A DNA stretch of 64,000 bases from Mucinivorans hirudinis (GTDB lineage: Bacteria > Bacteroidota > Bacteroidia > Bacteroidales > Rikenellaceae), in NCBI GenBank assembly GCA_000723505.1, contig HG934468.1, positions 1,830,798 to 1,894,797 of the forward strand. The letters run 5' to 3'. How positions within the stretch are numbered: position 1 is the stretch's first letter; each line of letters begins with the position of its first letter. Below, in pieces: positions 13,077 through 60,386 of the stretch. The notes beneath the pieces are model-generated. The model did no database searches. It was given only the letters and a program-made list of their open reading frames with translations, and had not been told where the DNA came from. The translations under genes were made by a program, and so were the position numbers.

Positions 13077-14294
13077 CTATAACTCCATAGGCATCCTTTC
13101 GCCAAACTTTATCCGTAATTGACCTGCTGTTAACGCCCAATTCGGAAGGGGTTGAGTCCATTTCTTGGAGATGTTGAGCACCGCTAAGTAGAGTAACTTC
13201 ATCAATGCCATATCATTAGGGAAAACACCCTTCGTCTTGGTAACTTTCCGTGCCTGACGATGAAATCCCTCAACAGCATTAGTTGTGTAGATAAGTCTGC
13301 GAATATGCTCATCATAAGCAAAATAGGCACTAAGCTTATCCCAATTTCGTCGCCACGAGCCTATAACAACAGGGTATTTCTGCCCCCATTTATCCTCCAA
13401 TTTATCAAGATTGAGTTCGGCTAAATCCAGAGTGGGAGCTTGATAGACCGTCTTCAAATCACCCATAAACTCCTTTTTGTCTTTGGAGGCAATGTATTTC
13501 AATGAGTTGCGGATTTGATGAACGATGCAGCTCTGAATGATTACTTGCGGGAAAATGGTGGCTATTGCCTCGGCAAAGCCCGTAAGGTTGTCAATGCAGG
13601 CAATCAAAACATCTTTCATCCCACGTGCTTTCAAATCGGTCAATACACTCAACCAGAAGTTCGCTCCCTCACTCTCAGATACATACATCCCGATTAACTC
13701 TTTGCGACCATCCTTATTGACTGCCAGCACATTATAAACGGCTCGGCTCTCCGTACGTCCACCATCTTTGACCTTGTAGTGCATCGCATCGAGCCAAACG
13801 ATAGTGTACATCGACTCCAAAGGACGACTTTGCCACTCCTTGACCTTGGGAACTATACGTTCGATAATTTCACTCAGCGTATTGTGCGATATCTCAACGT
13901 CATACATCTCTTCGATATGAGCAGATATATCCCTCAGGCTCATACCCATACCATACAAACTGATGATCTTGGAGGACATATTATCCGCCAAAATGGTCTC
14001 CCGTTTCCTGAGAATCTCGGGTGTAAAACTGCTATGACGATCCTGAGGTGTCTCTATTTCAATCTCACCTGCCATCGTTTTGACTCGTTTGCTTCCTCGA
14101 CCGTTACGCTTGTTGCCTTGCTGGCGTTCCGCCTCGTCGAGATGAGCTGCCATTTCGCCATCCAAAGCGGCTTCTAAAAATTCTTTCAACAGTGGAGCAA
14201 ATGCCCCATCTTTGCCCGTGAGTGACTCCCCACTCCGAAGCTGAGATAATGCCTTATCACGCATTATTTGATACTCCTGACTTCTCCTATCCAT
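13077..14294 (-). CDS. IS256-family transposase
   Basis: 405 aa, full length for the family. It has the mutator-type DDE core: WLDAMHYKV near residue 167 holds the first Asp, CIDNLTGF near 234 the second, and NAVEGFHRQARKV near 345 the Glu. The start MDRRSQEYQIMRDKAL lies 45 bp inside the right end. It catalyses cut-out/paste-in of its own element. Confidence 0.95.
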   Translation of the reverse strand: MDRRSQEYQIMRDKALSQLRSGESLTGKDGAFAPLLKEFLEAALDGEMAAHLDEAERQQGNKRNGRGSKRVKTMAGEIEIETPQDRHSSFTPEILRKRETILADNMSSKIISLYGMGMSLRDISAHIEEMYDVEISHNTLSEIIERIVPKVKEWQSRPLESMYTIVWLDAMHYKVKDGGRTESRAVYNVLAVNKDGRKELIGMYVSESEGANFWLSVLTDLKARGMKDVLIACIDNLTGFAEAIATIFPQVIIQSCIVHQIRNSLKYIASKDKKEFMGDLKTVYQAPTLDLAELNLDKLEDKWGQKYPVVIGSWRRNWDKLSAYFAYDEHIRRLIYTTNAVEGFHRQARKVTKTKGVFPNDMALMKLLYLAVLNISKKWTQPLPNWALTAGQLRIKFGERMPMEL

Positions 14295-16176: not shown

Positions 16177-16497
16177 ATGGCAAAGAGTAGCATGGGAACA
16201 AAACTCCCTCGGAAATTAGAACAGAATATGCAGATTGTGGGCGAACAAATCAAGCTGGCTCGTTTGAGGCGGAATTTGAGTATTGCTCAGATTGCCGAGC
16301 GTGCGACCTGCTCTCCACTAACAATCTCTCGTGTCGAGAAAGGTGCCGCGACGGTATCTATGGGCATATACCTTCGAGTCTTATATGCTCTTCAGTTGGA
16401 GGAGGATGTACTGCTACTTGCCAAAGAAGATCCGATGGGACGTGCGTTGCAAGATTTGCAGTTGAAACAACGAGAGCGTGCATCTAAAAAGGAGTAA
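16177..16497 (+). CDS. hipB: HipB-like antitoxin/regulator
   Basis: A 106-aa protein with an XRE helix-turn-helix at residues about 25-75 (LSIAQIAERATCSPLTISRVEKG). In HipBA modules HipB binds operator DNA and HipA, neutralising the kinase. The gene lies 3 nt upstream of hipA and behind an operator-like inverted repeat. A basic N-terminal tail precedes the HTH. Confidence 0.88.
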   Translation: MAKSSMGTKLPRKLEQNMQIVGEQIKLARLRRNLSIAQIAERATCSPLTISRVEKGAATVSMGIYLRVLYALQLEEDVLLLAKEDPMGRALQDLQLKQRERASKKE

Positions 16498-16500
16498 GCG

Positions 16501-17757
16501 ATGAAAAAATTATTGGTGTATGCCGATTTTGATTGGCTCAAAGAGATAGAGCTCATAGGTGAGTTGAGCTACGAAACGCTTCGTGGCTCGGATTCTTATG
16601 GATTTAAGTTTAGCGAAGAGTGGCTCAGACAATATGGGTCGTTACAACTTAGCGATGATATAAACAGCTTCCCCGGAATGCAATATACCAAGCAGGGGCG
16701 TGATATTTTTGGATGTTTCTCTGATGCTCTTCCCGATCGCTGGGGGCGGACACTGCTAAATCGTAGAGAACAATTACTTGCCACAGAACAGAAGCGTCCC
16801 GTGCGCCGACTCTCTTCGTTTGATTATCTTATGGGGATTGACGACCATTCTCGTATGGGTGCTTTTCGCTTTAAGGAGAGCCTTGACGGAGAGTTTATCA
16901 ACGCCTCGAACCAAATCAAAGTTCCACCTCTGACCACCTTGAGAGAGTTGATGCACGCCTGCTCCGAAATAGAGAAAAGCGAAAGCAAAAATGTATTGCC
17001 GGAGAAAAAGTGGCTTAATCAACTCATATTTCCGGGAACTTCTCTCGGAGGTGCACGTCCAAAGGCAAGCGTGGTTGATGATAAAGGTACGTTGTATGTA
17101 GCAAAATTCCCCTCTCGTAACGATGATTATGATGTGGGGCTATGGGAGCACTTTTGTCATATATTGGCTATAAAAGCCGGGATAAATGCTGCTTCATCAA
17201 GCGTCTTGAAGAGTGACGAGCGATTTCACACGATGCTATCCAAAAGATTTGACAGAGTCGATAATGGCAAGCGAATACATTTTGCCTCGGCTATGACCTT
17301 GTTGGGGCTTAACGATGGTGATAACGCCTCAACGGGATATGGCTATTTAGATATAGTTGATTTTATCGTGCGAGGTTGCACACGAGTCGAGGAGAACTTA
17401 CAGGAACTCTATCGTCGTGTGGCTTTCAATATTGCTGTTGGAAATAGTGATGACCACTTTCGCAACCACGGGTTTTTGCTCACCGCCAAAGGATGGACGC
17501 TGTCACCTGCATACGATATGAACCCAACGCTAAATAACGAGCAGAGCCTGCTGATTAATCGTTCGACCAACCGTTCAGATTTGTCAATCCTTAAGAGTTC
17601 CTGTGCCCAGTATATGCTTGAAGAGCAGACGGCCACCAAGATAATTGAGGAGGTAGTTGATGCTATGAAAGATTGGAGAAAGATTGCAGCGGGGCTAAAA
17701 ATAGCAAAACGAGAGATTGATATGTTTGCGGCAAAATTAGATAAACCATCATTGTAA
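16501..17757 (+). CDS. hipA: HipA Ser/Thr kinase toxin
   Basis: 418 aa, close to the length of E. coli HipA (440 aa). It has the N-terminal subdomain, then the kinase: ATP-loop GGARPKA near residue 182, catalytic NSDDHFRNHG near 317 and the Mg-binding DMNPT near 342. HipA phosphorylates a tRNA synthetase (GltX in E. coli), inducing growth arrest. All key residues are present, so it should be active. The cassette sits between two copies of an RNase H gene end. Confidence 0.92.
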   Translation: MKKLLVYADFDWLKEIELIGELSYETLRGSDSYGFKFSEEWLRQYGSLQLSDDINSFPGMQYTKQGRDIFGCFSDALPDRWGRTLLNRREQLLATEQKRPVRRLSSFDYLMGIDDHSRMGAFRFKESLDGEFINASNQIKVPPLTTLRELMHACSEIEKSESKNVLPEKKWLNQLIFPGTSLGGARPKASVVDDKGTLYVAKFPSRNDDYDVGLWEHFCHILAIKAGINAASSSVLKSDERFHTMLSKRFDRVDNGKRIHFASAMTLLGLNDGDNASTGYGYLDIVDFIVRGCTRVEENLQELYRRVAFNIAVGNSDDHFRNHGFLLTAKGWTLSPAYDMNPTLNNEQSLLINRSTNRSDLSILKSSCAQYMLEEQTATKIIEEVVDAMKDWRKIAAGLKIAKREIDMFAAKLDKPSL

Positions 17758-19747: not shown

Positions 19748-20608
19748 TTACTTGTTAGTGGACTTGACTTTATTGCAATACCTGCGTAGTCCGTCATAGC
19801 TTTTTCGCTTGATATCATTGTCTGAATGTTCCTTTGTTTCAGCATTCAATCTAACTAATCGTTTATAGTAGCTATGTTCCAATTTTAGGCGATTATTTTG
19901 GCAGACAACCCCTGTGATGATTGGATTATTTGTCTTATAGAAGGTTTTATTATGACTAATTCTGTATCCATCCTGCTTTAAAATGTCAAGAATATCCTGG
20001 ACTTTATCTTTAAAGCATTTCTTAGAAGAAAATGTCAAGTCATCTACAAAAGATGAAAATTTAATATCATTTTGCACTGCAAATACCTCAAGCTTTATCC
20101 CTGTTTTCATAAAAAGAAGATTTGCAAGAAGTGTGGACGTAGGAACCCCTTGAGGGAGCTGATATTTGTATGTAGTCAGTTGTGTTAATATTCTTGATAT
20201 AGTAGGAGTGCAGCCAATTTCAATAAAAAAATCAAATACTTGCGTGTTATTTATTGAAGGAAAATAGGATTTAAGATCTGTTGTAAATATATATTTGTTG
20301 CCTTGATGATGTTTGGCATTAAGAACATTGTCTTTTTTTGCCACACCTCCATAAGCGTATGAAGGGATATCAACATGAGAAAGTAGAAATCTATATATTC
20401 TCTTTTGAATCTTCTTTAATTCAATCTTTGTAGAGTTTAGTTGTCTCTTTTTGGGTTGACCATTGATAATAACAGGATTGCCTGTATTCTTGTCAATTTT
20501 TATTTTTTCCCACGAAATATAATAATCACCAATGTTATCAATAATATTCTGAATATTATTGATATCTGTTTTTAAGATGTAACATAGGTGCTTTATATTA
20601 GTGATCAT
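19748..20608 (-). CDS. Retron-type reverse transcriptase
   Basis: 286 aa. Retron hallmarks are visible: NAKHH (97-101, the NAxxH element), catalytic Asp111 in TTDLKSYFPSI, LPQG (151-154), FVDD (187-190) as the YxDD box and ITG (231-233) at the VTG position. Retron RTs copy the msd part of their own ncRNA into msDNA, priming from a 2'-OH guanosine. Upstream lie a small membrane gene and an ncRNA with matching a1/a2 repeats. FVDD replaces the usual YADD, which still keeps both Asp residues. Confidence 0.92.
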   Translation of the reverse strand: MITNIKHLCYILKTDINNIQNIIDNIGDYYISWEKIKIDKNTGNPVIINGQPKKRQLNSTKIELKKIQKRIYRFLLSHVDIPSYAYGGVAKKDNVLNAKHHQGNKYIFTTDLKSYFPSINNTQVFDFFIEIGCTPTISRILTQLTTYKYQLPQGVPTSTLLANLLFMKTGIKLEVFAVQNDIKFSSFVDDLTFSSKKCFKDKVQDILDILKQDGYRISHNKTFYKTNNPIITGVVCQNNRLKLEHSYYKRLVRLNAETKEHSDNDIKRKSYDGLRRYCNKVKSTNK

Positions 20609-21402: not shown

Positions 21403-21631
21403 GAATGTATATACTACCTTGGATAAACCAATGGCGAAATCACTACCTATATTGATGCAAGCATCACAGAGACGATTTTAAGCGCAGAAATTATATATTG
21501 TTGATTATCTGCATTTTATCCAGTTCTTAGCCAATCGCTGTAACTTTCTGATTTAGAATAATATATACTTCCTGCATCGGTAAATAACTCGCTGATTTAC
21601 AGCAAATTACATTCAAAACATTTTTACTTTA

Positions 21632-21657
21632 AGTGCTCAAAATGAGCACTTTTTTTG
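21632..21657 (+). terminator. Intrinsic terminator
   Basis: AGTGCTCA (21632-21639) and TGAGCACT (21643-21650) form an 8-bp stem with an AAA loop, followed by seven T residues. Confidence 0.8.
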
Positions 21658-21782
21658 TTTTACTTTTATTCTAAGTAAACTTCCGTTTACTCTGTTTTAC
21701 TACATTTTCCGACCATTTTCTTAGCCATTTCTTAGCCAATGTCAGACGGGTTGAATTTCTTTGACCCAGAATGTCGTCAGTT

Positions 21783-21842
21783 TAGACGAAGTTAGACGAG
21801 GATGGACGAGCTTAGACACCAGTAGACGCAGATAGACGGAGA
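21783..21842 (+). repeat. Six TAGACG iterons at exact 10-bp spacing
   Basis: Units start at 21783, 21793, 21803, 21813, 21823 and 21833: TAGACGaagt, TAGACGagga, TgGACGagct, TAGACaccag, TAGACGcaga, TAGACGgaga. A 10-bp step places all copies on one helix face. A related array precedes the decayed module at 60.1 kb, so the array travels with this gene family. Likely binding sites for the integrase, its HTH partner or an initiator. Confidence 0.8.
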
Positions 21843-21928
21843 TAACAGGCGAAATAACCTTCCACAACCTTGGAGATATAATAGGTGAAATAACTATTGA
21901 TGACATTTTCGTCTTCATATATTCCACT

Positions 21929-21996: not shown

Positions 21997-23145
21997 ATGA
22001 GTAGCAATTTTGAAATCACAAAGACCTGTGAGCTTTGTGGCAGTAGCTTTATTGCCAGAAAACTCACCACACAGTACTGTTCTCATCAGTGCTCACAGCG
22101 TGCCTATAAACTCAGAAAAAGAGATGAACGAATAAAGGCAGTAGCTGATAGCGAAACAACAACGTTTGGATTAGCACAAAAAAAATCAAACGAATTTAAC
22201 CCAATTCAAAACGATTCCACTAGTCTTAATAGAAAAGAGTTTTTAAATGTGCTAGAGGCATCGGAATTATTAGGTGTTTGTAGAGCAACAATCAACAACT
22301 ACTGCGTTCAAGGCAAATTAAAATGTATTAAGATGAATAGGAAAATTTTTATCAGGCGCAATGACATTGAGCAGCTCTTTGAAAGTGCGCCACCCTACGT
22401 GGTGACTCCACGAAAAGCAAAAACGCAAGAACCGACTGAGGCGGTATCTGAAGAGTGTATTACCGAATTTTACACGGCAGATGAGTTGGCAACGAAATTT
22501 GGGTACTCCAAATCTGCTATTCATAAAATGGCAGCAAGTAAACACATTCCCAAAACGACTCATAATGGTAGCTATCTGTACAGCAAGAGACACTTTGACG
22601 AAGCATTTGCCGGAAAACAAGTTGATGAGTCAATTACTGAATGGTACACAGTGGAGCAAATTATGGAGCTCTACTCTATGACCAAAAATTCGGTTTACTC
22701 CTTAACCAGCGAACGGGCAATCACCAAAAAGAACCAATCCGGCAAGACTCTCTATGATAAATCAGAGATAGATACAATTCTTCAGCCTCGATTGGGAGAT
22801 GCTTCAATCGTCGAGTGGTACACAAACGATGAGATTAAAGATGTATACGGTTTTGAGCCGGGATATGTCGCAAGTTTTGTCTTCAAGAACAAAATCCCCA
22901 AGAAACGGATCGGAAACAAAGGCTACTACTCCAAACAGCACTTTGACAAAGCGGTCGCCGAGCGTAAACCATCCACAGAGTACATTACTGTCGATAAAGC
23001 AATGGAGTTATACCGTATGAGCAGAGATGCTGTATATGCCTGCGTAAAACGTCACAACATACCTAAGATTAAAGAGGGGCCAATCATCAAACTGCAAAAG
23101 TCGGCACTCGAAGCATTGTTTAATCCAGTAAAATTATACATATAG
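21997..23145 (+). CDS. Zinc-finger / multi-HTH DNA-binding protein of the integration module
   Basis: A 382-aa protein. The N-terminus has a Cys cluster, CELCGSSFIA...YCSHQCSQRAYK (residues about 11-42), like a TRASH-type finger. Four to five excisionase-like (HTH_17) units follow: LNVLEASELLGVCRATINNYC near 77, TADELATKFGYSKSAIHKM near 161, TVEQIMELYSMTKNSVYSL near 220, TNDEIKDVYGFEPGYVASF near 275 and TVDKAMELYRMSRDAVYAC near 328. Tandem HTH units could bind the phased TAGACG array just upstream. It is followed at 2 nt by the integrase and probably acts with it in recombination directionality or repression. Confidence 0.85.
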   Translation: MSSNFEITKTCELCGSSFIARKLTTQYCSHQCSQRAYKLRKRDERIKAVADSETTTFGLAQKKSNEFNPIQNDSTSLNRKEFLNVLEASELLGVCRATINNYCVQGKLKCIKMNRKIFIRRNDIEQLFESAPPYVVTPRKAKTQEPTEAVSEECITEFYTADELATKFGYSKSAIHKMAASKHIPKTTHNGSYLYSKRHFDEAFAGKQVDESITEWYTVEQIMELYSMTKNSVYSLTSERAITKKNQSGKTLYDKSEIDTILQPRLGDASIVEWYTNDEIKDVYGFEPGYVASFVFKNKIPKKRIGNKGYYSKQHFDKAVAERKPSTEYITVDKAMELYRMSRDAVYACVKRHNIPKIKEGPIIKLQKSALEALFNPVKLYI

Positions 23146-23147
23146 TT

Positions 23148-24260
23148 ATGGCAAAAAAGTCAGCAACCCTACGACAAGATGAAATTTCAAAAGGACGAAT
23201 TTCTCTTTACATTCAGTATTATCCCCCTATTCGTAATCCACGCACGATGAAGATGGTGCAACGTGAGACACTGAACATCTATCTCCACAAAAACCCTGCG
23301 GATGACATCGAGCGAAAGCACAATGAGGATATGATGGTCAAAGCAAAGACCATTCACGCACAGCGAGTGCAATCCATCGTCAATGATGAATACGACTTCT
23401 TTGACAAACACCTGCTTGATGAGGATTTCCTGAAATACTACTACGAGTATGTAAAGACCAAGCCCGGCAAATGGCTCTATGTGTTTCAGCATTTTATCCG
23501 ATTCGTTGACGGCAAATGTTCGTTCAAAGAGGTTACGGTCGATCTATGTCGCCGTTTTGGCGAATATCTGCTCAACGATGCCACACAACTCGAAAATAGC
23601 AATGTGAAGTTAAAAACGAACTCCGCAGCCGGCTATTTTTCGACATTCAGAGCTATGCTAAAAATAGCTTATCGAGAGAAACGGCTCAAGGAGAACGTAA
23701 ATGACTACATCGAAAAGATTCAGTGGGAACAAACCAAGCGTGAGTACCTCACCTTTGATGAAGTGCAAAAGCTTATCGACACTCCGTGCGATATACCTGT
23801 GCTAAAATACGCCTCGATGTTTTCAATAATGACAGGGCTGCGTATCAGTGATATTCTCCAGCTCGAATGGGAACACATCGTCAACCTTCCTCGCCAAGGG
23901 TGGTCAATCCGTATGGTTACGCAGAAGACCAAAACGCAAGCCAATCTACCTATTAGCGATGAAGCCCTCGAATGGTGCGGTAAACGCACGACAGGACGTG
24001 TATTTAAGAATCTTCAGCGGTCAATGGTGCAGTTCCCATTGCAAAGATGGATTAAAGAGGCCGGGATTGAAAAGCATATCACGTTCCATTGCTTTCGCCA
24101 CACATTTGCAGCATTACAGCTCTCCTCGGGCGAGGATATATACACAGTATCGAAGATGTTGACGCACAAACACGTCTCAACTACTGAGATTTATGCTGAT
24201 TTGGTTAGCGAAAAGAAAGTGAAATCGGCAAACCGAATCTCGTTTAAGAAAAAGGAGTGA
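23148..24260 (+). CDS. Tyrosine integrase of the element
   Basis: A 370-aa integrase with all domains: an N-terminal arm-binding-type part (to about 90), SAM-like core-binding domain (about 90-195) and catalytic domain with Arg in TGLRISDILQLEW (about 227), Lys in TQKTK (about 260), HCFRHTFAA (about 309-317), the LTHKH box (about 334) and nucleophile Tyr in TTEIYADL (about 344). It should integrate and excise the element at an att site. No tRNA gene or obvious att repeat is visible nearby, so the ends are not fixed here. Confidence 0.95.
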   Translation: MAKKSATLRQDEISKGRISLYIQYYPPIRNPRTMKMVQRETLNIYLHKNPADDIERKHNEDMMVKAKTIHAQRVQSIVNDEYDFFDKHLLDEDFLKYYYEYVKTKPGKWLYVFQHFIRFVDGKCSFKEVTVDLCRRFGEYLLNDATQLENSNVKLKTNSAAGYFSTFRAMLKIAYREKRLKENVNDYIEKIQWEQTKREYLTFDEVQKLIDTPCDIPVLKYASMFSIMTGLRISDILQLEWEHIVNLPRQGWSIRMVTQKTKTQANLPISDEALEWCGKRTTGRVFKNLQRSMVQFPLQRWIKEAGIEKHITFHCFRHTFAALQLSSGEDIYTVSKMLTHKHVSTTEIYADLVSEKKVKSANRISFKKKE

Positions 24261-24353: not shown

Positions 24354-24746
24354 ATGGCAAACGGCACACTAACTTTTGATCAGCTCCCACAGGCAGTTGA
24401 GACACTAAACAAAAATATCGAGTCGCTTATCGGACTGGTAAATACGATGAGTGAACGCATATCGGTGATTGAGCAGACAATGACAGGTAGAGAGATTCCT
24501 ATGGACGTAGAAGAGGCTTCGGTCTTAATTAAACGCACCAAAGGGACTCTCTACAAAATGGTCTGCAACAAAGAGGTTCCATTTCACAAGAAGGGCAACC
24601 GGCTTATCTTTTACAAAAATGAGCTACTGGATTGGCTCTCGGATGATACCAACAATGAAGCAGGAGCAAGTGGCATTGTATCGACTGTTGTTGACGAGTC
24701 CGAGATTACCGATTTAGCAAAATTAATACGCAAGAACCGAGTATAA
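24354..24746 (+). CDS. Excisionase-like HTH protein
   Basis: A 130-aa protein with a coiled N-terminal region (LNKNIESLIGLVNTMSERISV) and an HTH_17/excisionase domain at about residues 52-95 (MDVEEASVLIKRTKGTLYKMV...LIFYKNELLDWL). Such proteins commonly follow integrases in Bacteroidales elements and bias recombination towards excision or control transcription. Confidence 0.8.
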   Translation: MANGTLTFDQLPQAVETLNKNIESLIGLVNTMSERISVIEQTMTGREIPMDVEEASVLIKRTKGTLYKMVCNKEVPFHKKGNRLIFYKNELLDWLSDDTNNEAGASGIVSTVVDESEITDLAKLIRKNRV

Positions 24747-26197: not shown

Positions 26198-27347
26198 CTG
26201 AATTCAACCTGCAAATGCAACTGAATTCTGGTTAATAATTTGTTTAAATTTTTCCTTTGGCGTGAGGTATCCGAGTCTTTTACGAGGTCTATTATTTAGT
26301 TTGTTTTCAATCCATTTAATCTGCTTGTCGGTTATCTCACTAAAATCCGTACCCTTTGGGATATATTGCCTGATAAGTCCATTAGTATTCTCATTGGCAC
26401 CACGTTCCCACGAATGGTAAGGTTTACAAAAATAGAAATTTAATTCTAATTTTTGTGCAATTTCCTCGTGTTTAGCAAATTCTTTTCCATTGTCAGCCGT
26501 CATAGTGTGTATAAGTTCTTTGACTTTTTTCAATGCAGATGTGGTTTTTTCGGCTAATGGGGTGGCTTCTTTCCCCGACAGCTTACGAATCCAAACTCTA
26601 CTTGTTGCTCTGTCATTTATGGTAAGAATCGCTCCTTTGTGGTTCTTACCGATAATGGTATCAATTTCTAAATCCCCGAATCGTTCTTTAAGCTCAACAA
26701 CTGCTGGTCGCTGGTCTATATCTATCCTGTTTGGAATAAACCCACGCCCAGCATTCTTTGAGCCTCGTTTTGCATATTTTCGTCCTTGCCTTCGTAGTAG
26801 TTTGTAGAGTTCCCCACCACTTAGTTTATCCGCCCAAATCCATTTGTAAATGGTTTCGTGCGAGACCATTTCTTTACCCAACAGTCTGCATCTACCTGTA
26901 ATTTGTTCGGGGCTAAACCCTATCTTTAACATCCTTTTAACTCTTTTTTGCATTTTGAGAGTAAAGGTCTGTTTATGCCGTTTGCTCTTTTTTCGCTCAT
27001 CAGCTTTTCGTTGAGCCAAATCCATTACATATTTACCACTGCGTTTATCACAGTTTCGTCTTAGTTCTCGGCTGATAGTACTTTTTGAAACCCCGATAGT
27101 TTCGGCTATCTCTTTTTGTGGATACGACTTTTGCTGCATTGCAAAAATTGTGTATCTTTGCTCTACGGTTAATTGTTTGCTCATCTGCAACTGATTTTTT
27201 GGACGGAGGAGGCTGCAAGATACAAATTTTTATCCATTCAGCGGAGGCGGGCGATGAGGTTTCCCTTATCCCCCCTCTCTGAAAAAATATGCTTGCTTCT
27301 TAACAGTACTCCTTACCGCCATCAGTTGCATTTATAAGTTGAACTCA
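26198..27347 (-). mobile_element. IS30-family insertion sequence
   Basis: About 1150 bp. Ends are imperfect inverted repeats of about 26 bp: left TGAATTCAACCTGCAAATGC at 26199 and the right-hand complement TGAGTTCAACTTATAAATGC ending at 27347, about 4 mismatches. A target duplication cannot be seen clearly; removing 26198-27347 restores the host frame. Confidence 0.88.
26204..27184 (-). CDS. IS30-family transposase
   Basis: 326 aa from MSKQLTVEQRYTIFAM. It has an N-terminal HTH (KEIAETIGVSKSTISRELRRN) and the IS30 DDE core: DLEIDTIIG (first Asp), TADNGKEF (second Asp) and the Glu in GANENTNGLIRQY (about 265-277). Full length for the family, with no disruption. Confidence 0.94.
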   Translation of the reverse strand: MSKQLTVEQRYTIFAMQQKSYPQKEIAETIGVSKSTISRELRRNCDKRSGKYVMDLAQRKADERKKSKRHKQTFTLKMQKRVKRMLKIGFSPEQITGRCRLLGKEMVSHETIYKWIWADKLSGGELYKLLRRQGRKYAKRGSKNAGRGFIPNRIDIDQRPAVVELKERFGDLEIDTIIGKNHKGAILTINDRATSRVWIRKLSGKEATPLAEKTTSALKKVKELIHTMTADNGKEFAKHEEIAQKLELNFYFCKPYHSWERGANENTNGLIRQYIPKGTDFSEITDKQIKWIENKLNNRPRKRLGYLTPKEKFKQIINQNSVAFAG

Positions 27348-28366: not shown

Positions 28367-30691
28367 CTAATAATTTACTATAAACCCATGTTTCGTCAAT
28401 GTTTCCAAATTTTTTTGACAAGCATAGACATATTTGCCATCAAGGGGGAATTTGCCATCGACTATAGCTTTCATCGTATTCCATTGCCAGTCTTTTAGAA
28501 TATGCCGTCTTTTATCCCATTCAACCATTTGCTTAACTACGTCCATAGTTATTGATGAATACTCAGTCATTTTCACTGGCGGTGCAACCGGTTCATCCTG
28601 CATATCATCTGCTTTAGCCAGCAAATCAATATTGCGAGCACAGATTATCTCATATATACGCATAGCCCTTGATCGGTCAATGTCAGCAATGGCTCGATTA
28701 TGTTTAATTCTATTTGCCATCTCGAAAGCGACAGTCTGCTGTTTGATATCTAAGAACTCGGATTCCTTGCCCCAAATCTCGATTTCACGCCACAATTTGT
28801 ATGGTATTGACTTTAGTAACTCTATCTCATATTTTTGACGCTCCTTTTCTTCATCAGTCTCAACTATAGCATTGCGTTTAGCTAATTGACCTTTATCAGC
28901 CATCTCGCCTTCGATATCTTGAATGTTTACATTCCATTGTGCACTCTTAATGGTTTGCCAGCACTCCTCCTTCTTTGCCCATTCAATATAGTGGGAACTT
29001 GGTGAGTTGTTGATAATAAACTTATTTAATTGCTTCATCAAGTCATACAGAAATGTCTGAAGTGCCTCTGAAATAGATTGATTCTTCCATATCTTAAACA
29101 AATCCAATCTATAATCAGTCAGATAGCCCAGCAAGGCTATTGCATAGGGCACAACAGCGTTCCTCATCTCGCCAATATTATTTGGCTTAACACCATAGAG
29201 ATTTTCTGCTTTTTTGAAGATAATAATCTTGGCTATTGTATCTTCGAAATATATGCTATTTATCTTTCTCTGAAGGTTGTTGTTGATAAACTGGGCATAG
29301 TTCTTCTCGTTACCCCTAACGACTATATGAGGACCAATAACTAATTTCTTTCCATCCCACACCTCTTGATACGCATTGACAAACTTAGCAAGCTCAACCT
29401 TGGTGAACATCTGTTTTTTCGGATATTTTAAGTCAAACTGCTTTTGACGAGCTTTTGTAAATCCATCTTTCTGGCGAATGTTCTTGTATTGACCTCTCGC
29501 ACGTTCAAAGAACCAATTTGTCTGAATATTATTACTCTCAGTAATAGGGGTAAGAATATACCTTGACAGTTTTTCAAACTCGATCAAAAATGGGTTGTTA
29601 GCCGTAAAGTCTGCATCATTAACCTTATTCTGAGTATTGGCAAATCTCGAAATTTGAGAAACTATATCTGCAAACTCGTCTTGCTTTTTAATAACAGAGA
29701 GTTTGACTGCTACAGAAATATTAGATATATCTGCTTTATCTTTCTTCCAAGTATGATAAATAGAAGCTGTGGTTTGCCCACCGTTTACTATTTGCAGATT
29801 AGATACTTTACTGATAAACCGTCCGGTCGTGTCTAATTCAATATGGTCTGCAGTTGCTGCAATACCATTATTAAACGCAAGAAACATGTGAGGCTCCTTC
29901 TGAATAGTGTTTCGTATACCTTTGTTTATTTTACCGGTAAATTGAAGAAATGAGCGAACGTTCTGTTCTAATAGTCTTGCTCCAAAGCGTTCATATAGAT
30001 TTGCTAATCCTAGCCCCGGCATAATAGCAATATATGCCTGATAGTCGCTATTTTCGGCTTGGGTTGTAAGACATGGCACGACAACACCTTCGTCGCTGAA
30101 CGAGATTTCAATCGGAATCCGAGATGATTCAGAAATATTGTAGAGGTAATTGATATCTAATATGCGATAAAAAATCTTATATCCAGAGATAGTTTGAGCA
30201 GCAGGAAAGTCACCTTTGTATTCTCCGTTAGTTAGTATCGTAGCATTAACCCTGACAAGATTCTCTTTAAGCTCTTTGTAATTTGCAAGAGTATTGGCAA
30301 ATTCAAATATTGACGATGACTCTTCTATCTCATTGACGTACTCTCCGTAAATTGCTTTTCTGAAAAAATTTGTAATACGGGTTGTTGCTTGGTCGATTCT
30401 CTCCTTTGGAATACGTTGAATTGTATCATCACCTAAGAATAAGGAGATGAAAATATCCACTGTTTCATAGTTGTCAGATAAGGCATAAGCATTAATTTTA
30501 TGCTGATTTTTTGTGCCAAGCGCCTTCTCATCATACGCAAGATAGACGTTTTCGGTTTCCCCTCCTTCAGCGAGCAAATCAATAGCCATTTGAGTAAATA
30601 GCTGCTCTTGCGATGCTCCTTCCTCCGATGAGTCTTGCATGGAACGGATCTCTTGAATCAGAGATGAGTAGTATTTGTTAATCTCTTGCAT
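28367..30691 (-). CDS. AIPR-family (abortive infection) protein
   Basis: 774 aa. The AIPR signature region is clear: FLAFNNGIAAT, then QIVNGGQTTASIYH, ISRFANTQNKVNDADF and NWFFERARGQYKN. AIPR proteins were named from the abortive-infection phage-resistance determinant AbiR-type loci and recur in RM-like operons; their biochemical activity is unclear. It overlaps the preceding PD-(D/E)XK gene by 14 nt and so is translationally coupled to it. Confidence 0.9.
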   Translation of the reverse strand: MQEINKYYSSLIQEIRSMQDSSEEGASQEQLFTQMAIDLLAEGGETENVYLAYDEKALGTKNQHKINAYALSDNYETVDIFISLFLGDDTIQRIPKERIDQATTRITNFFRKAIYGEYVNEIEESSSIFEFANTLANYKELKENLVRVNATILTNGEYKGDFPAAQTISGYKIFYRILDINYLYNISESSRIPIEISFSDEGVVVPCLTTQAENSDYQAYIAIMPGLGLANLYERFGARLLEQNVRSFLQFTGKINKGIRNTIQKEPHMFLAFNNGIAATADHIELDTTGRFISKVSNLQIVNGGQTTASIYHTWKKDKADISNISVAVKLSVIKKQDEFADIVSQISRFANTQNKVNDADFTANNPFLIEFEKLSRYILTPITESNNIQTNWFFERARGQYKNIRQKDGFTKARQKQFDLKYPKKQMFTKVELAKFVNAYQEVWDGKKLVIGPHIVVRGNEKNYAQFINNNLQRKINSIYFEDTIAKIIIFKKAENLYGVKPNNIGEMRNAVVPYAIALLGYLTDYRLDLFKIWKNQSISEALQTFLYDLMKQLNKFIINNSPSSHYIEWAKKEECWQTIKSAQWNVNIQDIEGEMADKGQLAKRNAIVETDEEKERQKYEIELLKSIPYKLWREIEIWGKESEFLDIKQQTVAFEMANRIKHNRAIADIDRSRAMRIYEIICARNIDLLAKADDMQDEPVAPPVKMTEYSSITMDVVKQMVEWDKRRHILKDWQWNTMKAIVDGKFPLDGKYVYACQKNLETLTKHGFIVNY

Positions 30692-31685
30692 ATATATTTA
30701 CGGTATTAAAGACTGTATTTTCAGGGATTAGATATTCGTTGCAATTATCTATTATCACAGAGTACTTTACATCACCTATACCATCTCTCAATTCAGACTC
30801 TTTGATTCTTGGGAAATCTCCCTCTATTTTGTAAAAATTTTCGTTTCGTGTTTTGTAATGCCTATTATTGTATATTCCTTTATCCTTCTCAAAATATCCT
30901 ACCTCCATGAGTTTTTGATTGAAGAGGTTGAAAGTAACAAAATCACTATTTATCAGCTCAGATATTTCAGTGATTATTTGATTTAAAGACTCCCCATTGC
31001 CATCGGAAGTTTCAACTGATAGATGATACAGATACAGATAATCCAATAAATTTTCGTCTAATTGGCGTTCGCTGCTTATGGATAATCGCTGGTGATTATT
31101 AGTTACCGTTGTTTTGACCTCTAATGCCCAACCTCTGTATTGAAAATCTCTCAAAGCACGATCGACTCCTACCCAACACGAAAGTGTAGTATGGTGGGGA
31201 AATCCTCTATTTAGAAATTTTCTAAGCAAAAAGAGTTCTCCATATAAGCCTTGCTGTTCGGCAGCTGATAGTCCATTGCTATTGAAACTATCAAATAATG
31301 CTTTCCACTTTTCTAATTGCTCTAAAACTTTTTTTATAACTCTCTTTTGATCAGTGATTGACGATACTGCGCTGATTAAATTTTCACATAGAATAGCAAA
31401 GATCTCGAGTAATTCCGATTTAGACAGCTTTATTATCAACAAATTACTATCCTCAAATGAAGTGTCTGACTGGATGTATACACTGACATCTTTGAGTCTA
31501 TTTAGCTGCGAAATATTAACTTCAAGCTTCGCAGAATATGAAATGGCGATACCGCAGTACTTTTCGTGCATCTCGTAAATACAGTATATATATTGCGATA
31601 AATCGGCTGAATATAACTTTTTAAGAAGACTCGGAGAATTAGCCTTAGCCAAATCATTCCATATAATATGTACTCTATTCATCAT
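30678..31685 (-). CDS. PD-(D/E)XK nuclease-fold protein (DUF4420)
   Basis: 335 aa from MMNRVHIIWND; the ATGATGAATAG junction overlaps the Z1 stop, which fixes this start rather than the extension to 31712. The nuclease core is visible at LYGELFLLRKF (Glu), VGVDRALRDFQYRG and WALEVKTTVTNNHQ (the EVK triad), about residues 160-195. DUF4420 proteins are predicted restriction endonucleases and are the probable DNA-cutting subunit of this operon. Confidence 0.88.
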   Translation of the reverse strand: MMNRVHIIWNDLAKANSPSLLKKLYSADLSQYIYCIYEMHEKYCGIAISYSAKLEVNISQLNRLKDVSVYIQSDTSFEDSNLLIIKLSKSELLEIFAILCENLISAVSSITDQKRVIKKVLEQLEKWKALFDSFNSNGLSAAEQQGLYGELFLLRKFLNRGFPHHTTLSCWVGVDRALRDFQYRGWALEVKTTVTNNHQRLSISSERQLDENLLDYLYLYHLSVETSDGNGESLNQIITEISELINSDFVTFNLFNQKLMEVGYFEKDKGIYNNRHYKTRNENFYKIEGDFPRIKESELRDGIGDVKYSVIIDNCNEYLIPENTVFNTVNIYARD

Positions 31686-34473
31686 TTTCGGCATTATCGT
31701 TATACACATCAAAATCTTCTTCGGATTCTCTGAACTTATCTATCAGCAAGCCGTTTATTGCATACTCTTCCGAATGTCCGGTCTGGCTACTGGGAAAAGA
31801 GATAGCTAGTCCGATAAATGGCTCATCTGTATTGCTAAATTTGACCTCATCGTTAGGTAAATTAGCACCGTCTGGGTCTAAAGGGTAAATAATGAGTAAC
31901 GGATTTGTTTTATCTCTAAAACCCTCTTCTCTCACAATCTTTGGCTTTGGATACTCTTTCGTCCATTTAGCATCAACTTGCTTAGATCTAATATGTGCCT
32001 TATCCAACACCCCTTGAGACAAGTCAATAAACTCATCGGTTTGGTTACCTACAATGTGATTTTTTCGAATTAAATACGAGTCTTTAGGCGAATTATCAGA
32101 CCTATTACGAATGAAACAACCAGCCTCTAATCCATTTGATAGACTTAACTTTGACTTGTTGCTCTTTTTATTCATAAGAGCAACACTCCAATTAATAAGT
32201 TCTCCGCTTTGATTTAATTTGTAGATAAAACGGATTATGCCTTCCGCATCAAATCCTTTTAGATTCTCAGCTACCTTAAATGACGACAGATAATTGCAAA
32301 TACTATCGGAATTAACATTACGCCATAAGTAATTTACTTTTAAATCACCTTTTCTCTCTGGATTGCCTAAAGAAGAGATGAAATTGTCAGTATGCACCTT
32401 ATTCGAATGAATAGCACCTCTGTCTAATGATAGTTGATACGTTTCGATAAGCTTACCTGACCACGAGATTCTAATTGTATTGACATTCCGCATTTTACTT
32501 ACCGCAGTAATTTGCAAACAACCTGGGTGGGTACGCACTTTCAAGGCATAGTCTTCTGGGGTACTGCCGGATTCAGCAAGGTAATTAAACTCTTCTCTAA
32601 GTTCTTCGCTTGCAAGTGTAATGTGTCGGAACCATTCGTTGAGTTCACAACTCGTATACAAGCGACACAAATCAACATAACCAGGACGGTAGCCAAACCA
32701 ACGTCCCATTTGCATCAATGTGTCGTACATTTTTGATGCTCTCAAATAGTAACTTACAGATAACCCCTCTAAAGTTAAACCTCGTGAGAGCTTATCTCCA
32801 CCAACAGCAATTACCGATAATCCACTTTTATCGTTCTCGTAATACTTCAGTGCATCTAATGATGTTCCATTTATTGCTTTAACCTCTATCTTTGTCGATG
32901 CTCGGTATAATAGTTCCTTTATTTCGTCCCATTTATGAACCTTTATATCAGAGTCCATATCTTTCAGTGGCGACTCTATGATATTTTGTGTGGTTGTTTT
33001 ATAAGAGATGTAATCTGGCGTATCGATTTCATAAGCCTCTCGTATCTCTTCTATTACACTTGGAATATTCTGTTCAATTCCTCTTCTGTAAAATTGGAAT
33101 TGTGAATCAACAAGCTCTTTTACGTGATTTTGCCATGCAACGAAACGTGTAACATGGACTAACATGGAATTATGTTTCGTTTCCTGCCCTCGTGCGATAC
33201 GCACGGCACAAGTGATAATAAAACTTTTTATTGCTGTTTTTAGAGATTCCGGAATATCACTTGGCTTATCAGCATCCCTTTTATGACCGTCAGGTATATA
33301 GTCATTATAATCATTAATAGAGCGGACAATAGGTAGGATATTATCGTCATCGTCATCTACTAAAGCAGAAGTGCCAAAGATTTTATCTGGTCCAATATAA
33401 TTACTCGGAGCTGGCAGATTGATGATAAAGTCACGAGGGAATAAGTCGTCTTCTGACAGGGGAATGAAAATATTTGCAAATGGAGTTGCTGTATATCCAA
33501 TATATCCAGAACGACTAAATAATGAGAGAATATTTCTAATACCTGCATTAATTGCAGTTGGTGATTCATTCTCTTTTTTTGTATTGATTGAGGCGTTGTC
33601 TGCCTCATCGTCAATAACCAGAAGAGATTTATTGACTATTTTTTTCGTTCCGTCAACATCCGTTGTTGTATGCGACAATAGCCACTTATGCAATCGTTTT
33701 AATACAGTTGCATTCTTTTTTACTACGACTAATATTGGTTGTGGTGTATTAAAGTTTACTCCTAAGGTTTCAGCGGCACGTTTTGTGAAGTCACCTTTAT
33801 CTGCACTTGTTGTTATGGAGCTTGCTATCGCATTTTCATATCCAGGTATTAAACCAACTCCTCGTTTGGTTGTTTGATTAAGCGTATAAGCCCTTTCAAA
33901 TTGAGTGTCAAAGCCAAGAAAGCCTTCATCCAAACGAAGCTGAGTTTGACTTCTTAGATTATTGTGAATACCTGCCAATACAATTATCAAATTGAACCCT
34001 GAATCCGCAGCTTTGCATATCAATCCAGTATAGTTTGCTGTCTTACCAGACTGCACCTGGCCAACAACAAGTCCTTTTTTACCAATAATAACATCTTGTT
34101 GAGTCGGATCGTACAATTTATCCAAAATTTGATCTGTTAAGGCATCGAGATTTGAAATAATATCTGGAGCAAAACCTTTGTTATTGCTGAGATAATCTTT
34201 GTATCTACCCCAAAACTGCCAGTGAGTTATCGGATGCTTCGATTTAAAAGACTTAATCCAAGGCTCTCTACGTTCTTTTGCTTCCAATATCTTAAACGAA
34301 TCAATCCTGACTCTGTACATTTCAAGGAGTGCGGCTTTCAGTTTCGTTTTATCCACTTCCGCGTAAACGGGCATTGAGATAATATTGTTTATTGCACTAT
34401 CAATATCATGATCTGTAATTGTTGTCTGTTCGCCGATAAACAGACGGCACATTGTTATCGCTTTATCTATCAT
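31675..34473 (-). CDS. Z1-domain SF2 helicase/ATPase
   Basis: 932 aa. Walker A GQVQSGKT (138-145) followed by IIVLAGIHNNLRSQTQ is diagnostic of Z1 proteins. A DDEADN Walker B lies near residue 286, a YTATPFANI motif near 325, and SRGLTLEGLSVSYYLRAS near 590 as a motif V/VI region. Z1 proteins co-occur with GHKL ATPases, DUF4420 nucleases and C5 methylases in predicted restriction-like systems and probably translocate or remodel DNA. Confidence 0.92.
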   Translation of the reverse strand: MIDKAITMCRLFIGEQTTITDHDIDSAINNIISMPVYAEVDKTKLKAALLEMYRVRIDSFKILEAKERREPWIKSFKSKHPITHWQFWGRYKDYLSNNKGFAPDIISNLDALTDQILDKLYDPTQQDVIIGKKGLVVGQVQSGKTANYTGLICKAADSGFNLIIVLAGIHNNLRSQTQLRLDEGFLGFDTQFERAYTLNQTTKRGVGLIPGYENAIASSITTSADKGDFTKRAAETLGVNFNTPQPILVVVKKNATVLKRLHKWLLSHTTTDVDGTKKIVNKSLLVIDDEADNASINTKKENESPTAINAGIRNILSLFSRSGYIGYTATPFANIFIPLSEDDLFPRDFIINLPAPSNYIGPDKIFGTSALVDDDDDNILPIVRSINDYNDYIPDGHKRDADKPSDIPESLKTAIKSFIITCAVRIARGQETKHNSMLVHVTRFVAWQNHVKELVDSQFQFYRRGIEQNIPSVIEEIREAYEIDTPDYISYKTTTQNIIESPLKDMDSDIKVHKWDEIKELLYRASTKIEVKAINGTSLDALKYYENDKSGLSVIAVGGDKLSRGLTLEGLSVSYYLRASKMYDTLMQMGRWFGYRPGYVDLCRLYTSCELNEWFRHITLASEELREEFNYLAESGSTPEDYALKVRTHPGCLQITAVSKMRNVNTIRISWSGKLIETYQLSLDRGAIHSNKVHTDNFISSLGNPERKGDLKVNYLWRNVNSDSICNYLSSFKVAENLKGFDAEGIIRFIYKLNQSGELINWSVALMNKKSNKSKLSLSNGLEAGCFIRNRSDNSPKDSYLIRKNHIVGNQTDEFIDLSQGVLDKAHIRSKQVDAKWTKEYPKPKIVREEGFRDKTNPLLIIYPLDPDGANLPNDEVKFSNTDEPFIGLAISFPSSQTGHSEEYAINGLLIDKFRESEEDFDVYNDNAENDE

Positions 34474-34475
34474 AT

Positions 34476-35942
34476 CTATTCAAGTGTTGATACAATCTCA
34501 GGAAAGTTATTGAATGGCTCTAAGCACATAATAAATGCTTTTGCTTGCTCTGAGCTTTTGCCCAAAATAATCTGATTCTTATATATTTGTTTGAGATTTG
34601 CCACTATTACCTCTATGTCTGAGCCCTCAAACGGTTTTTTCTGATTATCTCCTTGTTCTGACTCTTTGATGAATATAGATTTAGAAGGAATAGTTTCTTC
34701 AATAAAACGAAGCATTTGCTCAATGGCTCTCTCCGGTTCTGATTGAGCTAACTCTTTAAACTCCTGAATTAATAGGTGTTCCCTATTTATTACAAAAGAC
34801 CATTTATCTCCCTTTTTTTTATCCAACCAAAGTGGCTGAAAATCCTGCCCAGCTCTTTGTTTAATTATTCTTCCGCGATGACGAAACGCTTCACATCCTT
34901 GACTTCTGACCTGCATTGCATAAGCTCTGAGTTGATCTTTGCAAGCTAATGGAGGTCTGGCGGTAGATTTTTTTATATCAATTTGCCACTCGGAGTCCAG
35001 TTTGTTTGGTAAATCTATTTGAATACGAACAAGTTTGTAATGCTCTTCTTTGCGGAATAGACCCAACCAATCACCAGCCAATAATAGTCGCTTACCTCTA
35101 TAGACATAGAATCCTTGTTGAGCACCCCAACCGTTCAAACCTTCTGCCTTTTTATATACACCCTCACTTATTTTGCTTTTATGAGGTAAAATATATCCCT
35201 TCATCACAGCTCCGCCTTGTATGTAGTCGTCAGGAAACGTCTGCGTAGCTACCTCTGTGAGCAAGAAAGGATTCCATGATTCTACTTCTTTACCCCAGAA
35301 ATATATCTTTGTCTTTCTTTCCTCAATAAATCGGTGAAATGTCATGGCAACGTGATATTTTACCTTTTCCATCAATTCTGAAAATTTACCCATTGCGTTG
35401 TTGTCTGCGCACGAGGTAGCAGCTGGCAGAATTCTATCTAATTTACTCCATACTACTAATGTCCCGGATTCTTGATTATCCAAATGTGCTTTATACTCTT
35501 GAGGGACATACCGGAGCAACTCCCACTTATGTGATTGATTAACATAGTCAAGATCCCATGTCCAAAAAGTTGAATCGCCCCCCTTCTTTTTACTTAGCAC
35601 TGATAACATTCTGCATTGAGAAAAGGAAGCTGTTTTTAGTCCCAATCCAAAGCGTCCTAAATCACTTTCGTCCCTATCAGCAAGTGGGTTTTGTGCCCCA
35701 GGACGCATAGCTTGAACAATCTCTTCTGCATTCATTCCATCTCCGTCATCTAGGATTGTAATATGAGAGTCGCCTCCATTCCATGTAGAATTGATGTGAA
35801 TGTTTTTGGCATTAGCAGATATTGAGTTATCAATAATATCAGCAACAGCCGTTTCGAGACTATAACCAATTGCCCGAAAGGTTTCAATCATTGAAGCAGC
35901 CTCAGGAACAGCCGATATTTTTTCTATGTCGTTGTAATTCAT
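34476..35942 (-). CDS. GHKL (Hsp90/MutL-like) ATPase
   Basis: 488 aa. The N-terminal ATP fold shows DIIDNSISA (N box, about residues 35-43), DDGDGM (G1, about 65-70) and GRFGLGLKTA (G2, about 93-102). MutL-type ATPases act as nucleotide-driven clamps. The start overlaps the methylase stop by 4 nt (ATGA). A role as the ATP-gated sensor or clamp of the system is inferred from MutL and MORC relatives. Confidence 0.9.
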   Translation of the reverse strand: MNYNDIEKISAVPEAASMIETFRAIGYSLETAVADIIDNSISANAKNIHINSTWNGGDSHITILDDGDGMNAEEIVQAMRPGAQNPLADRDESDLGRFGLGLKTASFSQCRMLSVLSKKKGGDSTFWTWDLDYVNQSHKWELLRYVPQEYKAHLDNQESGTLVVWSKLDRILPAATSCADNNAMGKFSELMEKVKYHVAMTFHRFIEERKTKIYFWGKEVESWNPFLLTEVATQTFPDDYIQGGAVMKGYILPHKSKISEGVYKKAEGLNGWGAQQGFYVYRGKRLLLAGDWLGLFRKEEHYKLVRIQIDLPNKLDSEWQIDIKKSTARPPLACKDQLRAYAMQVRSQGCEAFRHRGRIIKQRAGQDFQPLWLDKKKGDKWSFVINREHLLIQEFKELAQSEPERAIEQMLRFIEETIPSKSIFIKESEQGDNQKKPFEGSDIEVIVANLKQIYKNQIILGKSSEQAKAFIMCLEPFNNFPEIVSTLE

Positions 35943-59791: not shown

Positions 59792-59920
59792 ATAAAATTA
59801 GAAAACGCTAATAAATAAGTAATTTATTGATATTTAGCGTCATCAGTACATATTCGGAAGCCTCTGCAACTCATTGATTATCAGCATTGTTACAGGTTAT
59901 GCATCGTAAATAGTCCTTGA

Positions 59921-59978
59921 TTATCAACGATTAACAACGAGTAACAACGATTAAGAACGCACTGATTTCAAGTGCGTT
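59921..59978 (+). repeat. Four 10-bp AACGA repeats followed by a hairpin
   Basis: TTATCAACGA, TTAACAACGA, GTAACAACGA, TTAAGAACGc start at 59921, 59931, 59941 and 59951. The last unit runs into AACGCACT (59956-59963), which pairs with AGTGCGTT (59971-59978) before a T-rich stretch, a terminator-like end. The 10-bp step is the same as in the TAGACG arrays. Confidence 0.6.
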
Positions 59979-60108: not shown

Positions 60109-60153
60109 TAGACGAGCGTGCACGAGCATAGACGGACTTAGACGAGATAGACA
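60109..60153 (+). repeat. Second TAGACG phased array (relic)
   Basis: Units start at 60109, 60119, 60129, 60139 and 60148 (TAGACG, TGCACG, TAGACG, TAGACG, TAGACA), 10-bp steps except the last (9). It precedes a decayed copy of the gene type that follows the array at 21.8 kb. Confidence 0.75.
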
Positions 60154-60187: not shown

Positions 60188-60325
60188 ATGAGCAGCAACA
60201 TTTCCGTCCAAAAAATATGCGAACTGTGCGGCAAAAAATTCATTGCCCAAAAAACCATTACTTAATATTGTTCGCCACAATGCTCCCAACGTGCATACAA
60301 AAACAGACTCCGAATACTAATATAG
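60188..60325 (+). pseudogene. Decayed copy of the zinc-finger/HTH integration protein
   Basis: Starts MSSNISVQKICELCGKKFIA, homologous to the protein at 21997, then a TAA after QKTIT, then continues YCSPQCSQRAYKNRLRILI to a second stop at 60323. Only the Cys-finger region survives; the HTH repeats and the integrase are gone. Confidence 0.75.
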
Positions 60326-60386
60326 AGGCTGTTATAGAGGATTACGAACAAATATCGAAACCTTTTCCTGTTCGCTTCGAAAAATA

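Follow-up and report, generated by a model that had tools for sequence, protein, structure and literature searches.

A Helix-Phased Repeat Array Ahead of an HTH-Integrase Operon in Mucinivorans hirudinis: Putative Sites of the Adjacent HTH Protein

The Locus

The stretch of DNA considered here, a 64,000-nucleotide piece of the Mucinivorans hirudinis genome (the window), contains a short array of direct repeats that precedes the gene of a multi-HTH protein, and this gene is followed by that of a tyrosine integrase. The features on which the discussion rests are the following.

21573..21583, +: att core TGCATCGGTAA, resembling the last mnmE codons (FCIGK-stop); putative left end of the element
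21631..21663, +: terminator-like element separating att core and array: hairpin (9-nt arms, 100% complementary) and then a T run
21783..21842, +: TAGACG-like array, six units at 10-bp steps (sequence reading, lag-10 score)
21997..23145, +: gene of a 382-aa protein with a Cys motif, a long helix and five winged-HTH units
22240..22389, +: HTH unit 1 (HTH1, aa 82-131), the unit covarying with the array
22282..22311, +: recognition helix of HTH1 (aa 96-105; AlphaFold2 model, mutual information, leave-one-out)
23148..24260, +: tyrosine integrase with Arm-DNA-bind_5 and SAM-like domains
24354..24746, +: small single-HTH_17 protein downstream of the integrase, candidate excisionase
59900..59910, +: degenerate att core with one mismatch; putative right end of the array's element and left end of a decayed one
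59904..59959, +: 10-bp array of another kind (AACGATTA type) beside the att core; candidate arm sites for the integrase
60109..60153, +: further array of TAGACG type (TAGACG three times, TGCACG once, and TAGACA as the last unit, one 9-bp step on)
60188..60343, +: dead copy of the Cys-motif region of a 21997-type gene, with internal stops and without HTH
60891-62225: gene named ffh by eye

The array is as regular as originally predicted: its six units follow one another in exact 10-bp phase, four of them exact TAGACG (at 21783, 21793, 21823 and 21833) and two with a single mismatch (TGGACG at 21803 and TAGACA at 21813), and a seventh, at 21843, is decayed. Its lag-10 segment score of 27.5 is the maximum of the window, and 60 Markov-shuffled 64-kb windows reach at most 15.0; the second-best score, 25.0, belongs to the AACGATTA-type segment at 59904-59959. 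Might TAGACG simply be a common genomic word? This was ruled out, because the word is not enriched in the 64-kb window (22 observed, 20.05 expected) and because nowhere in the 3.15-Mb genome, a single contig, do two exact TAGACG stand 10 bp apart except in the two arrays of the window. The second of these, at 60109, had been overlooked in the original prediction and directly precedes the dead remnant of a 21997-type gene. Among 107 mechanical ORFs of at least 150 aa in the window and five neighbouring stretches, three have a significant 10-bp array within 225 bp upstream: the 21997 gene, its paralogue (L008/L002), and one weak case.

The 21997 gene starts 155 bp after the end of the array. Four to five tandem excisionase-type HTH units had been read from its sequence, and both counts hold: Pfam finds four HTH_17 stretches, and the AlphaFold2 model (mean pLDDT 82, pTM 0.41) displays five winged-HTH units, with the wing strands of HTH1 at residues 111-120. 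The excisionase domain model TIGR01764 scores 42.9 bits on the protein, above the NCBIfam cut-off of 28.8, and the best solved-structure profile match of HTH1 is the Xis of mycobacteriophage Pukovnik (E 1.2e-7). Foldseek also matched one HTH unit to Pukovnik Xis (TMt 0.82, rmsd 1.0, E 0.064), as well as to BldC-DNA and RdfS; the E-values of these single-domain matches are weak (0.06 and above) and their TMt high, and the rows ranked first by E-value, extended alignments of TM about 0.1 and rmsd >20, were disregarded. The protein is thus of the excisionase-type winged-HTH kind, but with 382 aa, five winged HTH and a Cys motif it is not a small single-domain excisionase; relatives with one HTH and about 120 aa do exist. 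The integrase gene starts 2 bp past the stop codon of the 21997 gene, and the two genes are adjacent in the seven loci inspected, the integrase being recognised by eye.

With its matching att core, the element to which the array belongs is an integrative element of the mnmE 3'-end kind, and the first array unit lies 210 bp from the core at 21573. The DNA to the left of this core is that of another element and not mnmE; the true mnmE, with its own core at contig position 1713244, is elsewhere in the genome. Cores occur on the contig at 1713244, 1731638, 1852370 (window 21573) and 1890697 (window 59900, degenerate), a pattern that points to three stacked elements plus a remnant, lying between mnmE and ffh; the element spans of 18.4, 120.7 and 38.3 kb are derived from the core positions alone. 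The first element of the stack, at the true mnmE, shows no HTH-repeat gene (L011 11244-12552; an integrase-like gene, named by eye, comes soon after the core), and in this one element no significant array was found between core and integrase (score 7.5, p 0.21).

As cargo, the element in the window carries an Mza-type defence system (28367-37180; PADLOC models MzaB, MzaC, MzaD and MzaE), which a cytosine methyltransferase gene adjoins. A retron-type reverse transcriptase (19748-20608, -; best PADLOC model RT_VI) lies to the left of the att core, hence probably in the neighbouring element. Two near-identical transposase-like copies, one residue apart by eye, are present at 37575-38837 and 58443-59705, further transposase-like genes were named by eye at 26204-27190 and 13077-14294, and at 16177-17757 a gene for a small HTH protein precedes one for a HipA-like protein (by eye), with only weak candidate-defence matches in PADLOC.

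Arrays Beside Homologous Genes

Homologues were collected from three overlapping genome samples, in which 24/101 relatives, 50/268 members of the family and 68/393 of the order were positive at E ≤ 1e-10; the hits of 12 genomes of the order sample were left out (G401, G459, G470, G484, G488, G511, G550, G564, G566, G616, G631 and G634). Partial or duplicate pieces (L036-L040, L086) and a weak match (L004) were omitted, and two copies had no usable ORF (the remnant L003 and the contig-end copy L035), which left 110 loci. One of them, L068, was unscored for arrays owing to its short upstream region, giving 109, and L049, with N runs upstream, was counted as a miss.

A lag-10 segment significant at p ≤ 0.01 (400 bp upstream, 300 shuffles) accompanies 93/109 homologues across Bacteroidales, some of these matches being AACGATTA-like repeats by the att core that are distinct from the gene-proximal array; under the same settings, 16/109 have no significant lag-10 array. 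A repeat run with 100 shuffles gave lag 10 in 98/109 and lags 6-9, 16 and 17 in 2-5/109; lags 11 and 12 are raised too (45/109 and 31/109), and lags 13, 14 and 15 were found in 12/109, 6/109 and 16/109. The AACGATTA-like repeats, present near the att core in several related loci as well, are taken for integrase arm sites and are candidates for this role. The setting recurs together with the array: an att core stands 227-654 bp before the gene in 93/110 loci, and the C-terminus of MnmE is encoded upstream in 88/110. In NZ_OY725936, an annotated plasmid record, the order is mnmE, HTH protein, integrase, hypothetical protein and mobilization protein.

A second set was drawn from named genomes (Bacteroides, Parabacteroides, Alistipes, Coprobacter, Paraprevotella and others). 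It consists of the best 80 of 181 matching stretches from an alignment-based scan, 77 of them usable; it was picked by similarity to proteins with known arrays, and it overlaps the first set. Within the last 140 bp, lag 10 is significant in 76/77 and lags 8, 9, 13 and 14 in 0-4, and the att core is present in 64/77. A scan of the named-genome contigs with a single protein returned zero matches. Viral contigs contributed two matching loci, and of nine further loci inspected arrays were parsed in seven, L140 and L142 being missed by the search pattern.

The original prediction had proposed a search for TAGACG arrays beside homologues of the 21997 gene. What is conserved is the position of the array (93/109) and not its letters: among the units are TAGAC, GTTGAC, TGAGAC, TTTTAC, GGTAC, TGCAAT, GGCAC and TTGCAC. 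Another TAGAC-type 10-bp array, in which the remaining bases differ, occurs at L035, the contig-end copy from the same genus (G002).

Covariation of Array Letters with HTH1

If the letters change from one element to the next, do they follow any part of the protein? For this comparison the gene-proximal array was taken by rule from the last 225 bp, with arm-type motifs masked. In 11 loci (L027, L077, L081, L083, L088, L095, L108, L120, L122, L123 and L127) the span was set by hand after HTH1 and array had been viewed side by side, and L118 was dropped after the same view, so that 109 arrays remained, 70 of them non-redundant.

In these 70 loci, the closer two HTH1 sequences are to each other, the more alike are their arrays (Mantel r 0.53, p 0.0005); for the Cys part and for the rest of the protein the correlation is weaker (0.30 and 0.29). 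The partial correlations separate them further: HTH1 given the Cys part retains 0.48 and the Cys part given HTH1 0.15, and, over the 1,225 pairs in which the rest is long enough, HTH1 given the rest retains 0.56 and the rest given HTH1 0.09. In the 477 pairs whose rest is at least 60% identical, the median array similarity is 0.39 at an HTH1 identity below 0.5 (n=179; background 0.31), and 0.82 at an identity of at least 0.9 (n=85).

Within HTH1, two residue-base pairs stand out in mutual information: N101 and array column 8 (z 15.4), and A97 and column 0 (z 15.2), followed at a distance by a value of 9.1. These z-scores come from permutations that take no account of relatedness, and the remaining positions of the proteins served as the control. 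A scan of positions in the 45 longer proteins likewise ranks N101 first (z 11.2) and A97 second (z 10.0), and the maxima elsewhere are 5.9 in the Cys part, 5.2 in HTH2, 5.2 in HTH3 and 8.2 in HTH5 (T331). The preferences can be read as a code. At residue 101, Arg goes with G (0.91, 33 loci), and Lys, Asn and Gly with T (0.71, 0.83 and 0.88), while Tyr is mixed; at residue 97, Arg goes with C (0.79), Thr with A (0.76), Pro with T (0.73), Met with T (1.0) and Ala with G (0.74), while Gln is mixed (G 0.46); and Arg96 goes with C (0.86).

The code was then used for leave-one-out prediction, relatives with an HTH1 identity of at least 80% being excluded and a stricter cut set at 60%; here too the common array register was fitted on all 70 loci, the tested locus included. 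At the 80% cut residue 101 predicts its base in 61/69 (majority 35), residue 97 in 52/63 (majority 15) and residue 96 in 56/65 (majority 52), and two control positions reach 30/68 (majority 28) and 21/66 (majority 35). At the 60% cut the figures are 55/66 (majority 34), 52/63 (majority 15) and 47/55 (majority 50), so that residue 96, hardly above the majority at the first cut and below it at the second, adds little. Six new HTH1 sequences held out in the named set, too few to be informative, gave 5/5 for residue 101 (majority 5), 4/6 for residue 97 (majority 2) and 6/6 for residue 96 (majority 6); Thr97 followed by Ser98 went with T rather than A in both held-out cases. The window protein, with R96, A97 and N101, fits all three bases of its unit T-A-G-A-C (C, G and T, respectively), and the paralogue L002, with R96, M97 and R101, fits two of three. 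A97 and N101 thus appear to be the main base-specifying positions, R96 being weaker.

The paralogue offers a natural swap within one genome. Between the window copy and L002 the DNA from att core to array is identical at 203/211 positions, the array at 24/57 (42%), the spacer to the ATG at 60/108, the Cys part at 125/135 (93%), the linker at 73/102, the recognition-helix half of HTH1 at 39/72 (54%), its wing half at 80/81 (99%), HTH2-5 at 695/753 and the integrase at 1079/1113 (97%). Array and HTH1 helix segments have both changed, and the Cys codons between them were kept.

The swap also bears on the integrase. Since the arrays are unlike in spite of integrases that are 97% identical, the array was rejected as a set of integrase arm-type sites, a role that the AACGATTA-type repeats on the core side fit better than the TAGACG array does. 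The original prediction had called the pairing a non-standard arm-site layout. This is right insofar as it is not the layout of integrase arm sites; direct repeats at one helix turn are, however, normal for excisionases and RDFs, according to passages of PMC7498355.

Collectively, these data support the view that HTH1 specifies the array, the other HTH units, the Cys motif and the integrase varying largely independently of it. Given the conservation of arrays beside homologues and the residue-level covariation with the recognition helix, it is very probable, as far as comparison of sequences can tell, that the adjacent HTH protein binds at the repeats. To this extent the earlier interpretation stands. 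Its other half, a one-to-one match of HTH units and repeats, does not: the array units share one specificity, that of HTH1, and the number of units does not track protein length, used here as a proxy for the number of HTH units (Spearman -0.18, p 0.13, n=70, some of the proteins being cut by contig ends or broken). Even where the protein has only 100-149 aa (n=14, including L097 and L100, both from longer genes that are broken), the array counts 4-8 units. A filament on one helix face, the remaining part of that interpretation, is plausible by analogy, because HTH1 is nearest to a phage Xis for which filament formation is reported (Pukovnik Xis, in a title in the reference list of PMC7498355).

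Known Systems

Where does such an arrangement belong? Its closest likeness is to the excisionase/RDF group (Apl, lambda Xis, Pukovnik Xis and RdfS), with a winged HTH and direct repeats at one helix turn in the att region; BldC is a regulator with the same fold. Passages of PMC7498355 state that the direct repeats bound by RDFs are spaced by about one helix turn and that Apl of phage 186 binds att and a region between two phage promoters; for RdfS, passages of PMC11963761 estimate one protein per 10 bp and report binding to its own promoter also. The window array has this RDF-type spacing and place, and the 21997 protein would be what binds there. Unlike in Apl, Xis and RdfS, there are one to five HTH units and a Cys motif per chain, and the sites form a variable, decodable set that changes with HTH1.

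The second relative is Tn4555, a mobilizable transposon of Bacteroides, whose TnpA is a distant homologue (about 29% identical to the 21997 protein in an alignment covering 83% of the latter). TnpA likewise has a Cys motif and HTH and is encoded upstream of the integrase, and tnpC and a gene of the excisionase family come further along. Both the window element and Tn4555 have a small HTH_17 gene of its own besides. The 21997 gene resembles tnpA in homology, in its position before a tyrosine integrase gene and in the 10-bp array upstream, and Tn4555 has GTTGAC-type 10-bp arrays at -166 and -77 before tnpA, hence two arrays in place of the one in the window. Two GTTGAC-type arrays before a tnpA-type gene were seen at L131 5826-5940 and L133 3848-3965 (Tn4555 and a relative). 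Tn4555 differs further in that it sits in a conjugative plasmid and not at mnmE, and its cargo is given in passages on it as a beta-lactamase gene. Deletion of its tnpA made insertion essentially random, according to a passage of the review PMC5704250. The passages on Tn4555 in open-licence PMC papers gave no description of its arrays, and among titles and abstract openings of the open-licence PMC literature none was found that describes such an HTH-array arrangement in Bacteroidales.

SGI1-type islands, of Gammaproteobacteria, share the attachment end, the 3' end of trmE/mnmE (abstract of PMC8409611); tandem integration is reported for SGI1 in the title of PMC2297512, and its integrase is placed in the IntCTnDOT subgroup with Bacteroidetes integrases in passages of PMC8138268.

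Proposed Function

The mechanism that we consider probable, if by no wide measure, is that the element's own TnpA-type protein reads the array through HTH1 and forms a bent filament in the att arm and operon leader, private to each element. One copy of the protein would dock by HTH1 on each 10-bp unit, and the docked copies would align on one helix face into a short bent filament, as with excisionase-type proteins. From its location both in the integrase-side att arm, about 210 bp from the core, and in the operon leader ahead of the HTH and integrase genes, this filament would give shape to the recombination complex as well as tune the expression of the two genes, much as Apl of phage 186 works at att and between promoters. 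The extra HTH units may contact the integrase or partner DNA, and, since many elements share, and stack at, one chromosomal site, differing HTH1-array pairs would keep the complex of one element apart from those of the others.

A combined role as att site and operator is favoured over either alone, and the spacing of the array points both ways. In 59 loci the register-aligned distance from core to array clusters (199-201 in 20/59, 208-211 in 11/59) and that from array to ATG does so far less, locus pairs agreeing within 1 bp in 14% and 5%, respectively. A TANNTTTG box, which we take to be the Bacteroides -7 box, stands upstream of the array in 35/70 non-redundant loci and in 5/70 shuffled ones. 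Thirty loci have a core as well as a TANNTTTG box, and in these the array is set most tightly relative to the box: the distance from box to first unit is 69 bp in 11; the pair agreement is 21% for the box, 9% for the core and 8% for the ATG, and the resultant at 10.5 bp is 0.76, 0.29 and 0.25. A cruder measure of spacing gave no difference (MAD 11.5 for the core, 9.0 for the box and 9.5 for the ATG).

Could the array be an operator and nothing else, that is, an autoregulatory site in the HTH-integrase leader whose diversity reflects immunity-like repressor-operator types, with no part in recombination? The promoter-like box in half of the loci (35/70), its recurrent 69-bp distance (11/30) and the adjacency of the two genes speak for this reading, which we nevertheless hold to be rather unlikely: the core-to-array distance clusters too and the array-to-ATG distance is the more variable (14% vs 5%, 59 loci), one genome has three co-resident elements of one type, and the Tn4555 homologue has a genetic role in integration, as passages of PMC5704250 have it. 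The opposite reduction, in which the HTH protein is the excisionase and the array its X sites, a pure recombination-directionality site, draws on the TIGR01764 score (42.9 vs the cut-off of 28.8), on the helix-phased direct repeats known for RDFs (passages of PMC7498355) and on the single-domain fold matches to Pukovnik Xis and RdfS. We regard it as unlikely, because the window element has a separate small HTH_17 gene after the integrase, Tn4555 has its own gene annotated as excisionase family, and tnpA of Tn4555 acts in integration targeting (passages of PMC5704250).

The effect of TnpA on target choice (same source, in passages) and the second TAGACG-type array at 60109 would fit a targeting tag, by which chromosomal arrays of the same type attract new copies. 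This is very improbable, as exact 10-bp TAGACG pairs are confined to the two arrays of the window in the 3.15-Mb genome, both arrays precede gene copies and not plain chromosomal DNA, and the mnmE end is common to loci with different array types (MnmE C-terminus in 88/110). The chance that the coupling of array and HTH1 is mere neighbourhood and joint inheritance is slightly smaller still. The two do lie within about 600 bp, but the intervening Cys-motif codons covary far less (partial r 0.15 vs 0.48) and are 93% identical between the window and L002 with both flanking segments changed; the coupling is maximal at recognition-helix residues, and at an HTH1 identity below 0.6 residue 97 still predicts 52/63 and residue 101 55/66.

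Diversity and Outlook

How many types are there, and do they avoid each other? Residues 96, 97 and 101 occur in 29 combinations in 69 non-redundant loci. Co-resident pairs share a combination in 3/10 cases (all in one genome), against 12% of random pairs and 5% among non-redundant loci. There is thus no sign of same-type exclusion within one genome, 3/10 co-resident pairs being of the same type, some with an element not at mnmE. A broader idea, which we put forward tentatively and with some doubt, is that HTH1-array pairs are swappable address codes, private channels of recombination and regulation for elements that stack at one site.

If this is true, a DNA address would be readable from a few residues of one helix. 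Apl and RdfS read DNA loosely, according to passages of PMC7498355 and PMC11963761, respectively; the elements described here offer a large natural set of protein-site pairs of one architecture with changing letters, and with it a readable residue-to-base code for the excisionase fold. TnpA of Tn4555, known genetically, gains a concrete candidate binding site. Finally, the sharing of a single attachment gene by many mobile elements of gut Bacteroidales receives a possible explanation that can be put to the test.
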